Assembly: GCF_014639075.1 (NCBI RefSeq)
Contig: NZ_BMFS01000001.1
Coordinates: forward strand, 1-64,000
Origin: Glycocaulis albus
Lineage (GTDB): Bacteria; Pseudomonadota; Alphaproteobacteria; Caulobacterales; Maricaulaceae
DNA length: 64,000 nucleotides
Direction: 5' to 3'
Every line of letters begins with the position of its first letter. The first letter of the stretch is position 1. Both the position numbers and the translations under genes were made by a program. This document shows, one piece after another, positions 36,683 through 45,192 of the stretch. Below the pieces are notes generated by a model. It searched no databases and was not told the origin of the DNA. It saw only the letters and a program-made list of their open reading frames with translations.

Positions 36683-37108
36683 CTAGAGATGCAGAGCGTC
36701 GTTGGCCGCATCCTGGACCTTGCGCATCAGGCGGAAGCTCGCCGTGCGGTCCTTGCCATTGAAGAATTCGTTCTTGTCCAGGATCGTCAGGTGCGGTCCC
36801 AGCGCCTCGGCATCAACACGCGCCGATCCGGTCAGGATCAGGACCGGCGTGCCGCGCGCAATCTTCTCGGCTGTGCGCACTGTGTCGGTCGGGTCGATGG
36901 AGTCCGGCAGGCGCAGATCGACGATGATCAGATCATACTGGCGCCTGGCCAGCTTGCGTTTGGCGTCGCTCAGCGTGCGCACCACTTCCAGCTCGAACTC
37001 ATAGCCGCCAGCATCGCACAGGGCCTGCTGAAGCAGCATGGCATCGGCGAAGTCGTCCTCCACATGGAGGACGCGCAAGGTCTGGGTGGCTTGGGCTACA
37101 GCGTTCAT
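36683..37108 (-). CDS. Single-domain response regulator (CheY-like)
   Basis: A 141-aa receiver domain without output domain. The acidic pair is in LHVEDDFADA, the phospho-acceptor Asp64 in LIIVDLRLPDS, Thr in LILTGSAR and Lys in LDKNEF. It may be a phosphorelay intermediate. It lies 1.3 kb from the HK/RR pair at 38466-40111 with folD and yggT between, so a functional link is only suggestive. Confidence 0.9.
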   Translation of the reverse strand: MNAVAQATQTLRVLHVEDDFADAMLLQQALCDAGGYEFELEVVRTLSDAKRKLARRQYDLIIVDLRLPDSIDPTDTVRTAEKIARGTPVLILTGSARVDAEALGPHLTILDKNEFFNGKDRTASFRLMRKVQDAANDALHL

Positions 37109-37154: not shown

Positions 37155-38066
37155 TTATCCTGCGAGGGGATCGGCGATTGTTTCGCCGGTCCGTGCGGCG
37201 GCGGCCTTGAGCGTGTTGGCCAGCAGGACAGCAATGGTCATGGGGCCGATCCCGCCGGGCACAGGCGTGATATGGCCTGCGGCCTTTTCACTCGCCTCGA
37301 AGGCGACATCGCCGACCAGTCCTGTATCAGTGCGGTTGATGCCGACATCCAGCACGCACGCGCCCGGCTTTATCCAGTCCGCCTGCACCATTTCCGGGCG
37401 GCCCACAGCGGCAATCAGAATATCGGCCGAGCGGCAGACCGCAGGCAGATCGCGGGTGCGCGAATGGGCGAGCGTCACCGTACAGTTCTGTTCCAGGAAC
37501 AGAAGCCCGGCCGGCTTGCCGACAAGGATGGAGCGCCCGATCACCACGGTGTGCAGGCCGGACAGGTCGCCCAGCGCCTGCCGGGCCAGCCAGACACAGC
37601 CCGAAGGCGTGCAGGGGCGCAGCCCGTCCGCGCCCAGCACCAGCCTGCCTGCGCTGGTGGCGGTCAGCCCGTCCACATCCTTGGCCGGATCGATCGTCTC
37701 CACCACACGCCTGGTATCGATATGGGCGGGCAGCGGCATCTGCACCAGTATGCCGTCCACGGCCGGGTCGGCATTGAGGGTTTCCACCAGAGCGACCAGA
37801 TCGGCTTCAGCCAGGTCTGCGGGGCGCCGGAATTCCTGCGAGATCATGCCCGCAGCCTCTGTGCGCCTTACCTTGTTGCGTACATAGACATGGCTTGCCG
37901 GATCCTCGCCGACCAGCACCACAGCAAGGCAGGGTTTGCGCCCGATGCGTGCACTGAGCGATGCCGCCTCGCTTGCCACCGCGCTGTCGAGCGCCTGCGC
38001 GGCCAGCTTGCCGTCAATCAGGCTGGCAAGCCCTTCACGATGCCGGATGAAATCGGGTGTGCTCAC
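37155..38066 (-). CDS. folD: Bifunctional methylene-THF dehydrogenase/methenyl-THF cyclohydrolase
   Basis: A 303-aa enzyme interconverting one-carbon tetrahydrofolate forms. It has the substrate Tyr/Lys motif [13 protein letters not shown], the GILVQMPLP block, the [12 protein letters not shown] segment and [32 protein letters not shown] closes it. The start is a GTG at 38066, 6 bp after the yggT stop and without a visible ribosome site, so translation is probably coupled to yggT. Confidence 0.96.
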
Positions 38067-38072
38067 CGAACG

Positions 38073-38378
38073 CTAGCCCAGAAGCGGAAATATCTGCCCC
38101 ATGATCACCCATTCGCGCACGAAGAAGATGATCAGCAGCAGAACCAGCGGTGACAGGTCAATTCCGCCCAGCGGCGGCAGGATACGGCGGATGGGCGACA
38201 GCACCGGTTCGGTCAGCGCATTGGTGGCGCGCCAGATCGTATTGACGAACTGGTTGCGCGGATTGACGACATTGAACGCGACCAGCCAGCTCAGCACCAC
38301 ATTCACAAAGATTAGCAGCACCAGAATATTCAGTACCGGAATGATGAAATAGATTATCAGGGCCTGACCGAAGGTCAT
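38073..38378 (-). CDS. YggT-family membrane protein
   Basis: A 101-aa protein with two hydrophobic segments (IIYFIIPVLNILVLLIFVNVVLSWLV and LSPLVLLLIIFFVREWVIMG regions) and the family motif NPRNQF...TEPVLSPIRRILPPLGGIDLSP between them. The ATG at 38378 has GGAGA 6 nt upstream. YggT proteins are linked to envelope or osmotic functions but not well defined. Co-transcribed with folD. Confidence 0.9.
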   Translation of the reverse strand: MTFGQALIIYFIIPVLNILVLLIFVNVVLSWLVAFNVVNPRNQFVNTIWRATNALTEPVLSPIRRILPPLGGIDLSPLVLLLIIFFVREWVIMGQIFPLLG

Positions 38379-38465: not shown

Positions 38466-38876
38466 TCAGTGCCGTCCGGGTATCTCTGCGTGGTCGCGCC
38501 AGAACCGGCACACCGCGTCAGCCATCTGCTGATAACCACCCAGGCTGTCGGGCTTGCGCAAGTAAGCATTCGCCCCGGCCTCATAGGCCCTGTCGATATC
38601 GCCTGGCTGGCTTGACGACGAGAACACGATGATGGGGACCAGTTCAGGGTCCTCGCGTTCGCGAAGCGCCTCGATGACCTCGTGGCCGGACAGGCCCGGC
38701 ATGTTCAGATCGAGCAGCATGACATCGAACCGGCTGGAACGAAGCGCATCAAGGGCGGCCTGCCCGCCGGGCACGTGCATCAGATTGGCACCCTTCATGT
38801 CGGCGAAGGCGCGCTTGGTCAGAAAGGCGTCGCTCTCATCATCCTCGACGAGCAGGAGACGGATACTGTTCGCCAT
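38466..38876 (-). CDS. Rcp1-like single-domain response regulator, partner of ethylene-receptor-like kinase
   Basis: A 136-aa receiver protein. It has LLVEDDESDAFLTKRAF, phospho-Asp56 in VMLLDLNMPG, VFSSSSQPGDI and Lys in YLRKPDSLGG. The EDDESDAFLT pattern and the long region before the last helix resemble Rcp1, the partner of cyanobacterial phytochrome. The ATG at 38876 has AGGGGA 5 nt upstream and follows the kinase stop by 26 bp, so the two form one unit. It has no output domain, so phosphate must be passed on or the protein acts by binding. Confidence 0.9.
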   Translation of the reverse strand: MANSIRLLLVEDDESDAFLTKRAFADMKGANLMHVPGGQAALDALRSSRFDVMLLDLNMPGLSGHEVIEALREREDPELVPIIVFSSSSQPGDIDRAYEAGANAYLRKPDSLGGYQQMADAVCRFWRDHAEIPGRH

Positions 38877-38902
38877 TGTCTTCCCCTTCGGGCCCCGCTG
38901 GC

Positions 38903-40111
38903 TTACGAGGTGACGCCGCCGGCCGGTAACGAACCCGCTGCCGGCAGGGTCAGGCAGAAGCGTGCGCCGTGAAGGTGGGTTTCGTCCAGCCAAATTTCGC
39001 CGCCATGGCTCTCGACGATCTCCCGGCAGAAGGCCAGGCCCACCCCCATACCCTGATAACGGGTGTTGTCATGCAGCCTTTTCATCATCTGGAAAATCGT
39101 CTCGGCGTGCGCCGGATCGATCCCGATTCCATTGTCTGTAATGGAAACCGCGACCATGCCGTCATCACCCTGCGCGGCATTTATCGTGATCACCGGCGGC
39201 AGGGCGGAACGGTATTTTATCGCGTTGGAAACCAGATTCTGAAAAAGCTGGGTCAAAAGCACCGGATCGCCCTCAACGTGCGGTAAATCCCCAAACTCCA
39301 GCGATGCGCCGCTGGCCTGTATGTCGTCTTCCAGCGCCGACATCACGCCGGTAATGACACGCCGCAATTCCAGTGCCTCGGTCTTTGGTGGCCGGTTCAC
39401 CAGCTGGGCATATTCCTGCAGGACAGCGATCAGGGTCTGGGCACGCAGCGCGCCCTCGCGCACCTTGGCCAGATGCTTCTGGCCGTCGGCGCTCATCGCA
39501 TCGGCCTCTTCCTGCTCGAGAAGCTGGGAGAATATCTGGATGTGACGCAAGGGGGCCTGCAGATCGTGCGCGGCGGCTGCCGCAAACTGGCGCAAGGCCG
39601 TATTGGCCCGTTCAAGGTCGCGCGTGCGCTGGCGGACGCGATGTTCCAGCTGGCCCGTCACGGCCATCAGCCGGGCTTCCGCCTCGTCGCGGCGCCCGAT
39701 CTCGGCCTGCAAGGCATGGTTGGATCGTTGCAGCTGTATGTTTGACGGCATGGCCAGCGCGCGCGGCAATAACGGCCACAATGCAAGGGCGGTAGCCACG
39801 GATACGGCTGCCGTGGCCGCTTTCAGCACGCCCTCGAACTGATAGTGCGGGTTCCATACCGTCCAGATGGAGAAAAGATGCGTCATGCCGCACAGAAGGA
39901 TGAAGGCCACGAACAGCCACATTACCGGGCGGTAGACCAGGTCGGGCCTGCGTATCGAGAAAATGGCCAGCGCTGCGGGAATGGAGAAATAGGACAGCGC
40001 GATCAGCGCATCGGACAGCACATGCGTCCACAATATGGACGGCTCCCACAGATAGCACATGCCGTGGGGCATGAAGCCGTGCGTTGATAGCGAATGCGTC
40101 ATGGGTTCCAT
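38903..40111 (-). CDS. Sensor histidine kinase with ethylene-receptor-type membrane domain
   Basis: A 402-aa kinase with three membrane helices (about 28-53, 60-84, 92-118) that closely match the ethylene-binding domain of plant ETR1 and cyanobacterial receptors. With a constant offset of 9, the ETR1 residues Asp25, Tyr32, Ile35, Pro36, Ile62, Cys65 and His69 fall on Asp34, Tyr41, Ile44, Pro45, Ile71, Cys74 and His78. Cys74 and His78 (CGMTH) are the copper(I) ligands. There is no GAF domain. A short coiled coil leads to a phytochrome-type HisKA (His182 in AAHDLQAPLRHI) and a HATPase with NLVSNAIKYR, DNGIGID and GMGVGLAFC. GGGAGG lies 10 nt before the ATG. The partner regulator gene follows. 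Confidence 0.9.
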   Translation of the reverse strand: MEPMTHSLSTHGFMPHGMCYLWEPSILWTHVLSDALIALSYFSIPAALAIFSIRRPDLVYRPVMWLFVAFILLCGMTHLFSIWTVWNPHYQFEGVLKAATAAVSVATALALWPLLPRALAMPSNIQLQRSNHALQAEIGRRDEAEARLMAVTGQLEHRVRQRTRDLERANTALRQFAAAAAHDLQAPLRHIQIFSQLLEQEEADAMSADGQKHLAKVREGALRAQTLIAVLQEYAQLVNRPPKTEALELRRVITGVMSALEDDIQASGASLEFGDLPHVEGDPVLLTQLFQNLVSNAIKYRSALPPVITINAAQGDDGMVAVSITDNGIGIDPAHAETIFQMMKRLHDNTRYQGMGVGLAFCREIVESHGGEIWLDETHLHGARFCLTLPAAGSLPAGGVTS

Positions 40112-40257: not shown

Positions 40258-40333
<76 letters not shown>

Positions 40334-40768: not shown

Positions 40769-42526
40769 ATGGACTGGTTTTCTCTTCTAGAGGCGGCGGC
40801 AGGCCTGGTTGGGGGCTTGGGTGACTGGTTCACCGATCCTGTAACACGCGAAAGCCTGGGCGAGGCCGTGCGCATCTACTGGACGGTTCTGTCCTGGGCG
40901 ACGGTCTATGCGGCGCTGGTGATCTTTGTCTCTTCCATCGATGACACGTTTCTGGACCTCTATTACTGGGTGCTGACGGCGCAGAACCTTGTCTTGCGGC
41001 CCTTCCGGCGCATTCCCTCGGTCGAAAAGCTGCGTGCCATGCCCGAAAAGCGGCTGGCCATACTGATCCCTGCCTGGCAGGAGGCCGATGTGATTGCCCG
41101 GATGGTGGATCACACCATTCAGGAGCTGGACTATACCGCCTACGACATCTTTATCGGGGTATATCCCAATGATGCGGACACGATCCGCGAGGCCGACGCG
41201 CTGGTGGCCCGTCACGGCAATGTCTACCGCGCCAATGTCGGCCATCCCGGCCCGACCTCGAAAGCCGACTGCCTGAACTGGATCATCCAGAACGCGATCG
41301 CCCGTGAGCTGCAGACCGGCAGGCGCTATGACGCCTTTGTCATGCATGACAGCGAGGACGTGATTCATCCCCTGTCCTTCAAGGTGATGAATGCCTGGCT
41401 GGACCGCGCCGACATGGTGCAATTGCCGGTCCTGTCGATGCCGCGTGCCTGGAACGCGCTGGTGGCAGGCCACTATATGGACGAGTTTGCCGAATGGCAT
41501 ACCAAGGATCTCGTCGTTCGCTCCCACATGACCGCGCAAGTGCCCTCTGCCGGCGTGGCAACTGCGCTGTCGCGCCGCGTCATCGACCTTCTCAATGCCG
41601 AACGCGAGAACCTGCCCTTCAATACCGACAGCCTGACCGAGGATTATGATATCGGCCACCGGCTCTATGAGGCCGGGTTCAAGTCCGCCTTTGTGCGCTA
41701 TTTTGCGCGGGTCAGGTTGACGACGCCCAAAGGCAGGCGCCGCACGCGGGTGGAGCTCGTGTGCACGCGTGAATTTTTCCCCGACGCGATGACGGTGTCG
41801 GTAAAGCAGAAATCACGCTGGATGCTGGGCATTTCCTACATGGGCTGGCGGCAGCTGGGATGGGTCGGCCCGCTCGTCCACCGCTATTTCCTTTATCGCG
41901 ACCGCAAAGCCATCTGGACCGCGCCGACGGGCATGCTGGCCTACTTCATCACCCTCCAGTGGGCGTTGTACTGGCTTGTCTCGGCCGCCATTCCCGAAGC
42001 CGGTGGCCTGCCGCCGCTGATCGACCCCAAAAGCTGGGTCTGGTCGATCGTGCTGATCAATTTCTGGTTTCTGGTGAACCGGCTCGTCCACCGGATGATC
42101 TTCACCGGCATCACGCACGGGTTCAAATACCTGGTAATGGTGCCGGTGCGCATGGTGGTGGGCAACTATATCGGCTTTCTGGCGGCCGCACGCGCCAACC
42201 GGCGCTGGATCGTCCACCGCGTGACCGGTGTGGCGATCACCTGGGACAAGACGATGCACTCCTATCCCTCGCCGGAGGAGATACGCCGCACCCAGTCCAG
42301 CTTTGCCTCGCACGAGCGGCCCGTGGCGGCGCGCCCCGCCTTGCCGGAGACCCTGACCGCCGGGCTTGCCGCTTCGGTGCCGGCTGCGCCCCGTCCAGCC
42401 CTGCCTGCGCCATCGCAAACACCCTTCATTTTTGATCTGGACAGACGCGCCGGTGCGCTCATGGAAAGAGCGCCAGCCCCGCCGCCCATGCCTGTTCCGG
42501 CTCGTATAGCGGAGACCCTTTCATGA
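40769..42526 (+). CDS. nfrB: NfrB-like inner-membrane glycosyltransferase (GT2 family)
   Basis: A 585-aa protein related to E. coli NfrB, the glycosyltransferase of the phage-N4-receptor polysaccharide. An N-terminal membrane helix (about 36-55) precedes the GT2 domain, with LIPAWQEADVI at 99-109, the DxD-like DSED at 194-197, TEDYD at 290-294 and QKSRW at 347-351. Three or more membrane helices follow (about 375-470). E. coli NfrB (about 745 aa) carries a C-terminal MshEN domain that binds c-di-GMP; here the C-terminus is a short Pro/Ala-rich tail and no such domain is visible. The stop overlaps the nfrA-like start by 4 bp. The symbol is by similarity. Confidence 0.82.
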   Translation: MDWFSLLEAAAGLVGGLGDWFTDPVTRESLGEAVRIYWTVLSWATVYAALVIFVSSIDDTFLDLYYWVLTAQNLVLRPFRRIPSVEKLRAMPEKRLAILIPAWQEADVIARMVDHTIQELDYTAYDIFIGVYPNDADTIREADALVARHGNVYRANVGHPGPTSKADCLNWIIQNAIARELQTGRRYDAFVMHDSEDVIHPLSFKVMNAWLDRADMVQLPVLSMPRAWNALVAGHYMDEFAEWHTKDLVVRSHMTAQVPSAGVATALSRRVIDLLNAERENLPFNTDSLTEDYDIGHRLYEAGFKSAFVRYFARVRLTTPKGRRRTRVELVCTREFFPDAMTVSVKQKSRWMLGISYMGWRQLGWVGPLVHRYFLYRDRKAIWTAPTGMLAYFITLQWALYWLVSAAIPEAGGLPPLIDPKSWVWSIVLINFWFLVNRLVHRMIFTGITHGFKYLVMVPVRMVVGNYIGFLAAARANRRWIVHRVTGVAITWDKTMHSYPSPEEIRRTQSSFASHERPVAARPALPETLTAGLAASVPAAPRPALPAPSQTPFIFDLDRRAGALMERAPAPPPMPVPARIAETLS

Positions 42527-44211
42527 CCCACACCCGTAAACGCCTGACGCGCTTCCGGTTCAACTCGGCCATTGGCCTGCTTGCTGCCGGCCTGTTGCTT
42601 GAATCCGGGGTGGATGTCGACCGGGCGGTATCTGCCTTTGCCACTGATTCCGGCCAGCTTGCCTGCGGCTATGAGCATTTGCGCCAGCAGGCCGTCGCGG
42701 CTGGCACGGCGCAAGGCTGGATGATGGCCGGCGATTGTGCGGCGACGCTGGGCGACCCGGCGACCGCGCTGGAAGCCTATCTCTACGCGCACACGATTGG
42801 CGGCATGAATGCGGACGAGACCATCTATGTGCTGCGCTCAATCGGCTTTCAGGCAGAAGCGGCCGGTGATCTGAACCGTTCGCGCTGGGCCTGGGTGGAG
42901 GCGGCCGGCCTGTCGCAATCGCCCGGCGACCGGCTGCGGGCGGCGCGGGCCCTCCGGCTGGCGGGAGAGACGGGCGCCGCGCGCGCGCGGCTGGCTGCGC
43001 TTGACGAGACGGGATTCCAGGGCGGTGAGCTGGCACTGCTTTACGAGGAGCGTGCGCGCGTGATCTCCGCTGAACAGCCCCGTGAGGCAGCGATGTGGAT
43101 GGACCGCGCGATTGCCATCGAGCCGGCGGCCTTCCGGCATTTCGACAAGGGCCTGTGGCTGCAGGCAGCCGGCGATGATGCCGGGGCGCTGATCGCGCTG
43201 GAGGCGGCCTACGCGGCAGACCCGCTGAGCCGGGACATCGCGCTGGCCAATGCCTATGCCTACCGGCGTGCCGGGCGCCATGAGGATGCGGCGCTGATCT
43301 TTGCCGATGTGGCAGGGCGCGAGCAGCTCAATCTCGGCGTACGCGAGGAAGAAGGCTATGCGCGCGCCGCCGCCGGACAGCGCAGCGCCGCGGCGGCCGC
43401 TTTTCGTGATGCGATTGACCGGCACGCCGCCGCGGGGACGGGCGATGATGACCCGGTGCGGCTCTACCGGTTGCGCCGTGAGGTCGAGACGCTTGAACGC
43501 ACGACCTATTTCACGGGCTATCTGACCTGGCGCGATGACGCGGCTTTTAGCGGATTCACCCTGCCCGAACAGGGCAGTTTTGAAAGCCAGATCGGCGCCG
43601 AGGCGGGCTGGCGGCCAGAGGGGCTCTACCGGGCCGGGCGCGGGGTCACGCTCTATGGCCGCGCCTATCAGAGCCTTGATGCCGGATCGCTCTCGCGTGC
43701 CGATGACACACTCCAGCTTGGCCTTGGCGCGCGCTGGAAGCCCATTGCCGGCCATGATTTCAACCTCGCTGCAGAACGTCTGATCGCAGGCGGTGATCTG
43801 GCGCGCGATGCCTGGCTGTTGCGGGCGTCTTATGGATGGACACAAGGCGGAGACTGGAATCCGGTTGCGGATCGCTGGGTCTATACCAGCCTCTATGGCG
43901 ATCTGGCCTGGATCCCGGATGATCCGCAGTTCACGTCGGCCTATGCCTCTGTGCGCCACGGGCTTCGCTTCCGCACGGGCGAGGGCTGGGCTGTGACACC
44001 CTATGTCACGGCTGTCGGCCAGATTTCCGATGACAGCCTTGCCACGCGCGAACGGCTGGAGGCCGGCGCCGGTGTGATGGTTTCGCGCTGGTTCGGTGAG
44101 GATCAGTACCGCGCGTATCGTCACCGGGTCGATTTCGAACTGGAATACCGGGCGGGCATGGGTGACACGCCCGGCCATAGTGTCATCGGGCGCGTGGTGG
44201 TCAATTTCTGA
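42523..44211 (+). CDS. nfrA: NfrA-like outer-membrane export protein with TPR region
   Basis: A 562-aa protein. An N-terminal hydrophobic segment (about 13-28, FNSAIGLLAAGLLLESG) may be a signal or anchor. Residues 40-310 are TPR-like repeats, and from about 330 the sequence becomes aromatic and beta-rich, ending HSVIGRVVVNF with a terminal Phe, as for an outer-membrane barrel. This matches the C-terminal domain of NfrA-type proteins, which export the polysaccharide made by NfrB and serve as the phage N4 receptor in E. coli. The order nfrB then nfrA is kept. At 562 aa it is much shorter than E. coli NfrA (about 990), mainly through fewer repeats. Confidence 0.78.
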   Translation: MTHTRKRLTRFRFNSAIGLLAAGLLLESGVDVDRAVSAFATDSGQLACGYEHLRQQAVAAGTAQGWMMAGDCAATLGDPATALEAYLYAHTIGGMNADETIYVLRSIGFQAEAAGDLNRSRWAWVEAAGLSQSPGDRLRAARALRLAGETGAARARLAALDETGFQGGELALLYEERARVISAEQPREAAMWMDRAIAIEPAAFRHFDKGLWLQAAGDDAGALIALEAAYAADPLSRDIALANAYAYRRAGRHEDAALIFADVAGREQLNLGVREEEGYARAAAGQRSAAAAAFRDAIDRHAAAGTGDDDPVRLYRLRREVETLERTTYFTGYLTWRDDAAFSGFTLPEQGSFESQIGAEAGWRPEGLYRAGRGVTLYGRAYQSLDAGSLSRADDTLQLGLGARWKPIAGHDFNLAAERLIAGGDLARDAWLLRASYGWTQGGDWNPVADRWVYTSLYGDLAWIPDDPQFTSAYASVRHGLRFRTGEGWAVTPYVTAVGQISDDSLATRERLEAGAGVMVSRWFGEDQYRAYRHRVDFELEYRAGMGDTPGHSVIGRVVVNF

Positions 44212-44316
44212 GCCGATAGACTCTCTGCAGGCAAAGGACGGCCCGATTTCACTGGAAGACCAGGGCTGAGAGGCGTATAACCCCTGCCGGTTTATGGTTA
44301 GCGGCACAGGCAGGGC

Positions 44317-45192
44317 ATGGCGCTTCTCGCTTCCATACAGGCAGGCAGTATTGTCAAGACGGTGGCGGGCGCGGTGCTGGTCGCGGCGGGGCTTACCGTG
44401 TCCGGCCAGGTTGCCGAGGAATATGCCTTGCGTGAGCGGGCCTATGCGCTCGCCGGAAGCGGGCAGTGCCGCGCAGCACACAGCGCCTTTGCCGAGCTGG
44501 CCCGGTCCAGCGGGGATGTGCGCGACTGGCTGGCAGCAGCGACCTGCGCGATAGAGGCCGGTGACCATGACCGCGCGGTCACGGCGCTGCAGGCCGTGCT
44601 GGCCGAGCGTCATGTTCTCACCACGGATGAGCAGATTTTTGCGCTACGCAGTTATGGCTATCGCGCCGAAGCTGCCGGTGACGGAGCCGGTGCACGCCAG
44701 GCCTGGCGCGATGCCGCTGCCCTGTCAGGGGCAGCGCAAGACCGGCTGATGGCCGCCCGCGCGGCCCGTCTTGCCGGTGACCGTGCAACGGCGCACGCGG
44801 AGTTGGCCGCTCTCAGCCCGGGCGCATTACCGGCGCAGTTCGCCGCCATCTGGCATGATGAGCAGGCCAGCCATGCCCGCCTTGCCGGACGCAATCGCGA
44901 AGCGCTGGCCCATATCGAGCAGGCGATTACCGTAGAAGACACGCCATGGCGCCGCTATGAGCAGGGCGTGGTGATGACCGCGCTGGGCCTGCACCGGTCA
45001 GCTGCGGAGGCGTTGATGCTCGCGCACGAGGGCGCGCCGGACAATGCCAGCATCCTTGTCTCGCTGGCCTATGCCAGCCGGGCCAGCGGCGAGACGGCTT
45101 CCGCGTACGATTACTACCGGCAGGCAGTCCGTCTTGATCCCGGCCTGTCGCGCCTCAGTGCTGATTTTCCGCCTGAAAACAGCCGCTCCTGA
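44317..45192 (+). CDS. TPR protein, barrel-less paralogue of the NfrA-like protein
   Basis: A 291-aa protein with an N-terminal signal-like segment (about 11-31) and TPR repeats. It is clearly related to the TPR half of the preceding gene: both have an acidic-x-ILE-type LRS-G-x-x-AEAAGD word, then AAR-x-x-RLAG, a DEQA/EERA helix and a YEQG/FDKG helix in the same order and spacing. It stops where the barrel would begin. It is probably periplasmic and may assist or regulate NfrA/NfrB; this is inference. The gap from nfrA is 105 bp. Confidence 0.75.
   Translation: MALLASIQAGSIVKTVAGAVLVAAGLTVSGQVAEEYALRERAYALAGSGQCRAAHSAFAELARSSGDVRDWLAAATCAIEAGDHDRAVTALQAVLAERHVLTTDEQIFALRSYGYRAEAAGDGAGARQAWRDAAALSGAAQDRLMAARAARLAGDRATAHAELAALSPGALPAQFAAIWHDEQASHARLAGRNREALAHIEQAITVEDTPWRRYEQGVVMTALGLHRSAAEALMLAHEGAPDNASILVSLAYASRASGETASAYDYYRQAVRLDPGLSRLSADFPPENSRS

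Follow-up and report, generated by a model that had tools for sequence, protein, structure and literature searches.

The window, a stretch of 64,000 nucleotides from Glycocaulis albus, carries on its reverse strand a gene for an ethylene-receptor-type sensor histidine kinase of 402 amino acids (38903..40111), followed by a gene for a single-domain, phytochrome-regulator-like response regulator of 136 amino acids (RR1, 38466..38876); both were assigned by Pfam matches and motif reading. The kinase stop codon and the RR1 start are 26 bp apart, and re-reading of the sequence confirmed the coordinates, lengths and spacing given in the first-pass annotation. A plausible ribosome-binding sequence is present for each gene, with GGGGAGG preceding the kinase ATG. 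From its N-terminus, the kinase consists of a His-Gly-x-Cys (HGxC) motif (H16, C19), an ethylene-binding domain (Pfam ETR1_N, residues 26-121, E=5e-38, 129.7 bits against a cut-off of 27), a coiled linker, HisKA (residues 172-237, E=7.6e-7) and HATPase_c (residues 281-391, E=4e-26), the latter two likewise above cut-off. The ethylene-binding domain initially read from the letters was thus recovered by profile search, and the kinase proved GAF-less as described, with neither GAF nor PAS listed by Pfam up to E=1. Judged by their profile scores, the ETR1_N, HisKA and HATPase_c assignments are far beyond chance. The phospho-acceptor of the kinase was read as His182 (HDLQAP), with the N-box at 292, G1 at 326 and G2 at 354. 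In RR1, Response_reg spans residues 8-109 and no other Pfam domain lies above cut-off; its motifs comprise the acidic patch E11-D13, the phospho-acceptor Asp56, FSSSS from residue 85 and Lys108.

The DNA of the ETR1_N match (39749..40036, reverse strand) encodes Asp34, Tyr41, Ile44, Pro45, Ile71, Cys74 and His78, hence 7/7 of the ETR1 binding positions, where Tyr41 corresponds to what we take to be ETR1 Y32. These residues lie at a constant offset of 9 as had been claimed, and their spacing fits the ETR1 numbers printed in the available part of PMC6586836 (D25, I35, P36, I62, C65, H69). The same source gives one copper(I) per ETR1 monomer, liganded by Cys65 and His69, and places the N-terminal cysteines of ETR1 at residues 4 and 6 (PMC6586836). 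The likeness to ETR1 that the first-pass annotation saw in an N-terminal Cys-x3-Glu-Pro word proved weaker than stated: Cys19 of the window is off the offset of 9 relative to ETR1 Cys 4/6, and only 10 of the 85 rows in an alignment of 84 loci plus the window query, in which the window counts twice (as query and as L001), have the Glu. In the 54-locus set described below, the conserved N-terminal element is His-Gly-x-Cys instead. Within the alignment, Cys, His and Tyr are kept in all 85 rows, Ile35 in 84 and Ile62 in 80; Pro is found in 69 and Asp in 70, the latter replaced by Asn in 13 rows and by Glu in 2. The full set of seven occurs in 51/85 rows, and most deviations in the other 34 concern Asp25 or Pro36; conservation of the set among homologues is hence not strict. 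Since the search patterns for this set included FMPHGMCY, its HGxC counts are biased and were not used. A second set comprises 54 loci that were located by the Pfam ETR1_N profile, whose match begins after HGxC, and recognised by our own profile; it leaves out 5 + 3 matches without a locus as well as L141 and L160-L163, missed by our own profile. All seven positions are present in 45/54 of these ETR1_N loci and in 25/26 loci of the family Maricaulaceae. His16, Cys19 and the copper pair are found together in 47/54 loci, all are absent in 4, and 3 are mixed.

An AlphaFold2 model of the kinase (46 sequences, mean pLDDT 88.6, pTM 0.65; residues 1-20 below pLDDT 50) displays helices 24-54, 61-86, 90-120 and 124-201, followed by the kinase fold, such that three membrane-length helices run into the long DHp helix. 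D34 is located in the outer half of helix 24-54, and C74 and H78 stand at i and i+4 on helix 61-86, as read along the model helices and not from interatomic distances. Assuming an antiparallel arrangement of helices 1 and 2, Asp34 and Cys74/His78 would come to lie at about equal depth in the model. A PDB sequence search with the sensor domain gave no match up to E=10. Foldseek placed bacteriophytochrome and other histidine kinases first for the kinase model, and the best 50 of 421 matches are all kinases. The best solved relatives of the kinase core by sequence are the RpBphP2 kinase 8f71 (E=3e-35) and other bacteriophytochromes, in line with the phytochrome-type core noted earlier. For RR1, the first solved relative is 6xvu (“Response regulator”, 6.7e-20) and the second 8avv, a bacteriophytochrome-fused regulator (1.4e-18). 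RcpB, RcpA and Rcp1 follow at about 2e-12 to 7e-12, no better than DivK and CheY chains; calling RR1 Rcp1-like is therefore fair insofar as these regulators are among its matches, but the likeness is not exclusive. Among the bacteriophytochrome systems (8f71, 8sgk, 8avv; RcpA/RcpB/Rcp1), the window kinase core finds its nearest solved relatives and RR1 its second-best one; a membrane ethylene-binding domain takes the place of their photosensory part.

The window genome has one ETR1_N gene. Among named relatives, Oceanicaulis sp. HLUCCA04 comes closest (85% identity), followed by Glycocaulis sp. PBR18_bin12 (72%); both belong to the Maricaulaceae. Within the genus, five of six genomes (own included) harbor the kinase, each with RR1 directly after it, and the sixth is without kinase. 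ETR1_N is present in 24/137 Maricaulaceae genomes above cut-off and in 28 at E<=0.001, and in 28/385 sampled alphaproteobacterial genomes, some of the copies being degenerate (own genome included throughout). In 12/15 fused, non-degenerate family loci, the kinase is directly followed by a receiver encoded on its own strand; of the exceptions, L146 has a receiver on the opposite strand, and none is in view in L005 and L147. No receiver was found beside the kinase in genomes G015 (L005, L091) and G497 (L147), so not every carrier depends on the regulator. Strong purifying selection acts on the sensor domain within the genus: against four congeners its dN/dS amounts to 0.04-0.14 by a plain Nei-Gojobori count, about the level of the linker and HisKA, whereas residues 238-280, which connect HisKA with HATPase, change rapidly. 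A quick sensor-domain tree (109 rows, 136 columns, no bootstraps, 48/105 inner branches open, the window included twice, divergent L136-L140 and letter-identical slices left out) places the window in a 15-row group (SH-aLRT 89) of exclusively fused kinases, comprising Maricaulaceae and one unclassified alphaproteobacterial record.

Several relatives display other architectures. All eight genomes of genus g10 (Maricaulis-type) above cut-off contain split receptors (L008, L148, L149, L150, L152, L153, L154, L156), in which the ethylene-binding domain forms its own ORF of 127-158 amino acids, with one open frame of 255, directly followed or overlapped by a separate histidine-kinase ORF. The two ORFs share a frame in 3/8 (L150, L154, L156) and not in the other 5, which argues for two genes. 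In the Maricaulis loci L045:4627-6723, L051:4608-6765 and L057:4700-6771, the kinase has apparent membrane segments of its own, with a long stretch in between. L120 and L124, from other families, show the same split arrangement and group with the Maricaulis-type receptors (SH-aLRT 94). In L116:772-2064 (G100), sensor domain and kinase share a frame that one stop codon interrupts, either a frame break or a split gene. Two family loci, L159:1357-2556 and L164:703-1941, keep the seven residues and HGxC in open frames of 400-413 amino acids, where our own kinase profile finds no kinase. Methylocapsa (L084:5770-6399, L081:273-917) encodes an ethylene-binding-domain protein that stands alone and has an additional hydrophobic stretch at its N-terminus; no kinase was recognised in these two fetched loci. 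A degenerate second kinase exists in genus g5 (L165:1396-2526, genome G484): it reads HYIAAAH at the seven positions, is without HGxC and has lost the copper Cys; G486 and G496 gave weak matches. Outputs likewise vary among relatives. Three gammaproteobacterial loci among 78 combine kinase, single receiver and a REC-GGDEF-EAL protein (L019:5956-9312, L023:5995-9334, L083:5968-9384; Reinekea, Cognaticolwellia, Pleionea), the GGDEF-EAL part being identified by Pfam in L019 and L083 and by sequence reading in L023, which points to a c-di-GMP output there. The regulator of L017 (Granulosicoccaceae) carries a LuxR-type (GerE) DNA-binding domain, and receivers of about the same size occur in L020, L021, L022 and L024.

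Downstream of the window pair, and co-directional with it, lie a YggT-family gene (38073..38375), folD (37155..38066) and a gene for a second single-domain receiver of 141 amino acids (RR2, 36683..37108), all on the reverse strand; yggT and folD are context, not parts of the sensor. The order kinase-RR1-yggT-folD-RR2-SDR is kept in 5/5 genus carriers. RR2 accompanies folD in the genus and in several further Maricaulaceae, with or without the kinase, and was not assigned to the sensor; it was seen in 5/16 compared folD loci (L096-L100) but not in the other 11, and further in L010-L012, L088-L092 and L095. Upstream of the kinase and divergent from it, a tRNA-Ala (cgc) is encoded on the forward strand (40258..40333), and beyond it, at 40769-45192, also divergent, follow genes for an NfrB-like glycosyltransferase, an NfrA_C protein and a TPR protein. 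We considered the NfrB/NfrA-like polysaccharide genes as the output and retained no more than a weak association. They adjoin the kinase in 4/5 genus carriers; in the fifth (L088) the match is limited to a fragment of the second NfrA-like gene, and in L091 and L095 they were not found next to the kinase. Furthermore, of the 723 positions of the c-di-GMP-activated NfrB model, the window NfrB covers just 6-481.

Copper supply was analyzed at the genome level. The window genome (estimated 100% complete, 27 contigs) yielded 0 matches to the copper-ATPase model TIGR01511 and 0 to the P-type ATPase model PF00122 at E<=0.001, in a search whose controls matched both models in 14/14 genomes (above cut-off in 13 for TIGR01511 and 14 for PF00122). 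Having no detectable P-type ATPase, it has no RAN1-type copper pump, and the plant copper-delivery route is missing; the copper ligands of the kinase are intact despite this, and the copper chaperones SCO1/SenC and PCuAC are encoded. Among the genus carriers, a copper ATPase above cut-off is present only in G003, the other 4/5 being without: the matches of G001 (single contig) and G002 are weak and lie in open frames of 927 and 950 amino acids, and G005 has no match. The kinase-less congener G004 has a copper ATPase. As the G003 matches lie on a second contig, the pump of the window strain could also reside on a plasmid that is missing. A link between receptor carriage and copper ATPase in the family was not found, since 19/24 carriers and 15/22 non-carriers have one above cut-off; the 22 non-carriers were picked from 113 genomes without ETR1_N above cut-off, and four of the 22 (G475, G477, G478 and G519) have sub-cut-off ETR1_N. 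At L124:820-1386, a SCO1/SenC gene stands directly upstream of the split ethylene-binding-domain gene, the sole such case among the fetched loci; the idea of SCO1 as a recurrent neighbor was dropped, as phmmer with this SCO1-like protein over the fetched loci returned only itself.

In plants, the copper ATPase RAN1 serves the receptors; how copper reaches ETR1 there is unsettled, with direct transfer from RAN1 set against a route through the ER lumen in a paper of 2025 (PMC12586476, available part). For bacterial receptors of this type, we tentatively raise a possibility that we regard as doubtful, namely that they may load Cu(I) from the periplasm via HGxC and periplasmic chaperones and without a P-type pump. 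The HGxC segment is located just outside helix 1. Residues 1-23 and 86-92 contain no Lys or Arg, and Arg54, Arg55 and Arg61 surround the loop between helices 1 and 2 (sequence and model), a charge pattern that suggests an N-terminus on the outside. Periplasmic loading is supported by this pattern, by the lack of a detectable P-type ATPase in the window genome and of a copper ATPase above cut-off in 4 of 5 genus carriers, one of them a single-contig genome, and by HGxC tracking the copper pair in the 54-locus set; as a general rule, it is opposed by the pumps of the 19 family carriers.

The first-pass annotation had regarded ethylene sensing in an alphaproteobacterium as new or little described, which the literature contradicts. 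AzoEtr1 of the alphaproteobacterium Azospirillum brasilense was shown in 2025 to bind labelled ethylene, with effects on biofilm and root colonisation and lowered c-di-GMP in Azospirillum (PMC11819568, available part), and a review describes putative ethylene receptors encoded in many proteobacteria (PMC7700396, available part). Given these precedents, the window pair is a further case of an already characterised sensor type. AzoEtr1 and AzoRR-etr1 have the same gene order as the window pair, also in the Sp7 plasmid record of the locus, and an output-less regulator of 135 amino acids compared with 136 here; AzoEtr1 keeps all seven residues and an N-terminal PHGxC (LPHGVC at its locus), as does the window kinase, and its ethylene-binding domain is ~50% identical to that of the window in a tblastn match (PMC11819568 and locus sequence). 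In contrast, AzoEtr1 has 525 amino acids, a PAS domain (PMC11819568) and a different kinase core, whereas the window kinase has 402, no PAS and a phytochrome-type core, so that the analogy is weak downstream of the sensor. Furthermore, AzoEtr1 lies outside the 15-row group of the window, in another group of the sensor-domain tree, and binding data and a phenotype exist for it (PMC11819568).

SynEtr1 (Slr1212) of Synechocystis, compared by its description, is likewise an ethylene-binding-domain kinase with a phosphorelay to a regulator, Slr1213. It is also a light receptor through a chromophore-binding GAF that was not seen in the window kinase, and Slr1213 activates transcription of a small RNA, a feature of which the window regulator gives no sign (PMC11819568, PMC7700396, available parts). 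Arabidopsis ETR1 shares with the window kinase the three-helix domain, the same seven positions and a histidine kinase core, but has a GAF and a fused receiver that the window kinase is without; ETR1 has RAN1 and the cysteines 4/6, whereas no RAN1 counterpart was found in the window genome and the window kinase carries HGxC instead. Among the literature matches listed, from which subscription papers were outside scope, no ethylene-receptor study in Maricaulaceae or another marine heterotroph appeared, a weak negative. By its domain content, what is distinctive about the window receptor is its short phytochrome-type kinase lacking PAS and GAF, and its lineage.

Domain, residue, synteny and selection evidence supports the designation of the pair as an ethylene-receptor-type kinase with a phytochrome-type regulator, and we consider it probable that the two form a bacterial ethylene-receptor two-component system. 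In such a system, membrane helices 24-54, 61-86 and 90-120 would hold one Cu(I) per subunit, liganded by Cys74 and His78 with Asp34 near, and ethylene would bind to this Cu(I). The resulting change would be relayed via helix 3 and the coiled-coil linker to the DHp helices and alter autophosphorylation of His182, by analogy through inhibition, and phosphoryl transfer to Asp56 of RR1, the presumed partner, would change in turn. Because RR1 is without an output domain, it must act by protein contacts or feed a phosphorelay. The outcome would likely be a changed attachment or surface state, by analogy with AzoEtr1 and SynEtr1. In line with the lowered c-di-GMP in Azospirillum, one may reasonably guess that RR1 output is linked to c-di-GMP and attachment; the window genome contains 6 GGDEF places. 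That the kinase might sense phytoplankton ethylene, or a copper or redox signal, was raised by the first-pass annotation and is a guess.

The copper site might instead be kept for another signal, such as copper availability, periplasmic redox or another small pi-ligand, with ethylene at most incidental. The mostly joint presence of copper pair and HGxC, and a genome encoding SCO1/SenC and PCuAC with no detectable P-type ATPase, are consistent with this. However, the non-ligand ethylene positions (Tyr, Ile, Pro, Ile) are kept in the window, all seven positions persist in nearly every family locus of the 54-locus set, SCO1, the one copper gene checked as a neighbor, does not recur among the fetched loci, and AzoEtr1, the experimentally tested relative, binds ethylene (PMC11819568); we hence regard a signal other than ethylene as unlikely. 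A decayed, non-signalling receptor or a chance match is very unlikely. Degeneration does occur in the family, as the paralogue L165 with its lost copper Cys illustrates, but the window copy combines its ETR1_N score with low dN/dS and complete catalytic motifs, and decay or chance is thereby refuted as far as sequence can refute it.

A further alternative concerns the partner rather than the signal: RR1 might not be the partner, or not the only one, and the kinase might signal mainly to RR2 or to another receiver or phosphorelay. RR2 belongs to the same directon as the kinase and is conserved in the genus, and in G015 (L091) a kinase without RR1 is found with RR2 behind yggT and folD. However, yggT-folD-RR2 also occurs in the kinase-less genomes G004, G018 and G019, and in G014 and G009 RR2 adjoins folD on another contig than the kinase. 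These two observations tie RR2 to folD and not to the kinase, and RR2 as a second kinase output was rejected on the kinase-less genomes. With RR1 at its short distance behind the kinase in 5/5 genus carriers, signaling mainly past RR1 appears improbable, and we retain the ethylene-receptor kinase acting through RR1 as the preferred reading.

With this pair, the known range of intact-looking ethylene receptors comes to include the Maricaulaceae, whose members are dimorphic bacteria. Its very small architecture, a sensor and a kinase, would suit biochemistry and structural work, for which the L165 paralogue may be usable as a natural non-binding control. If pump-less loading does not hold, the window receptor would be an expected further case beside those of Azospirillum and Synechocystis; if it is true, the window's genus and its receptor would offer a simple and natural bacterial test system for copper delivery to ethylene receptors such as plant ETR1.
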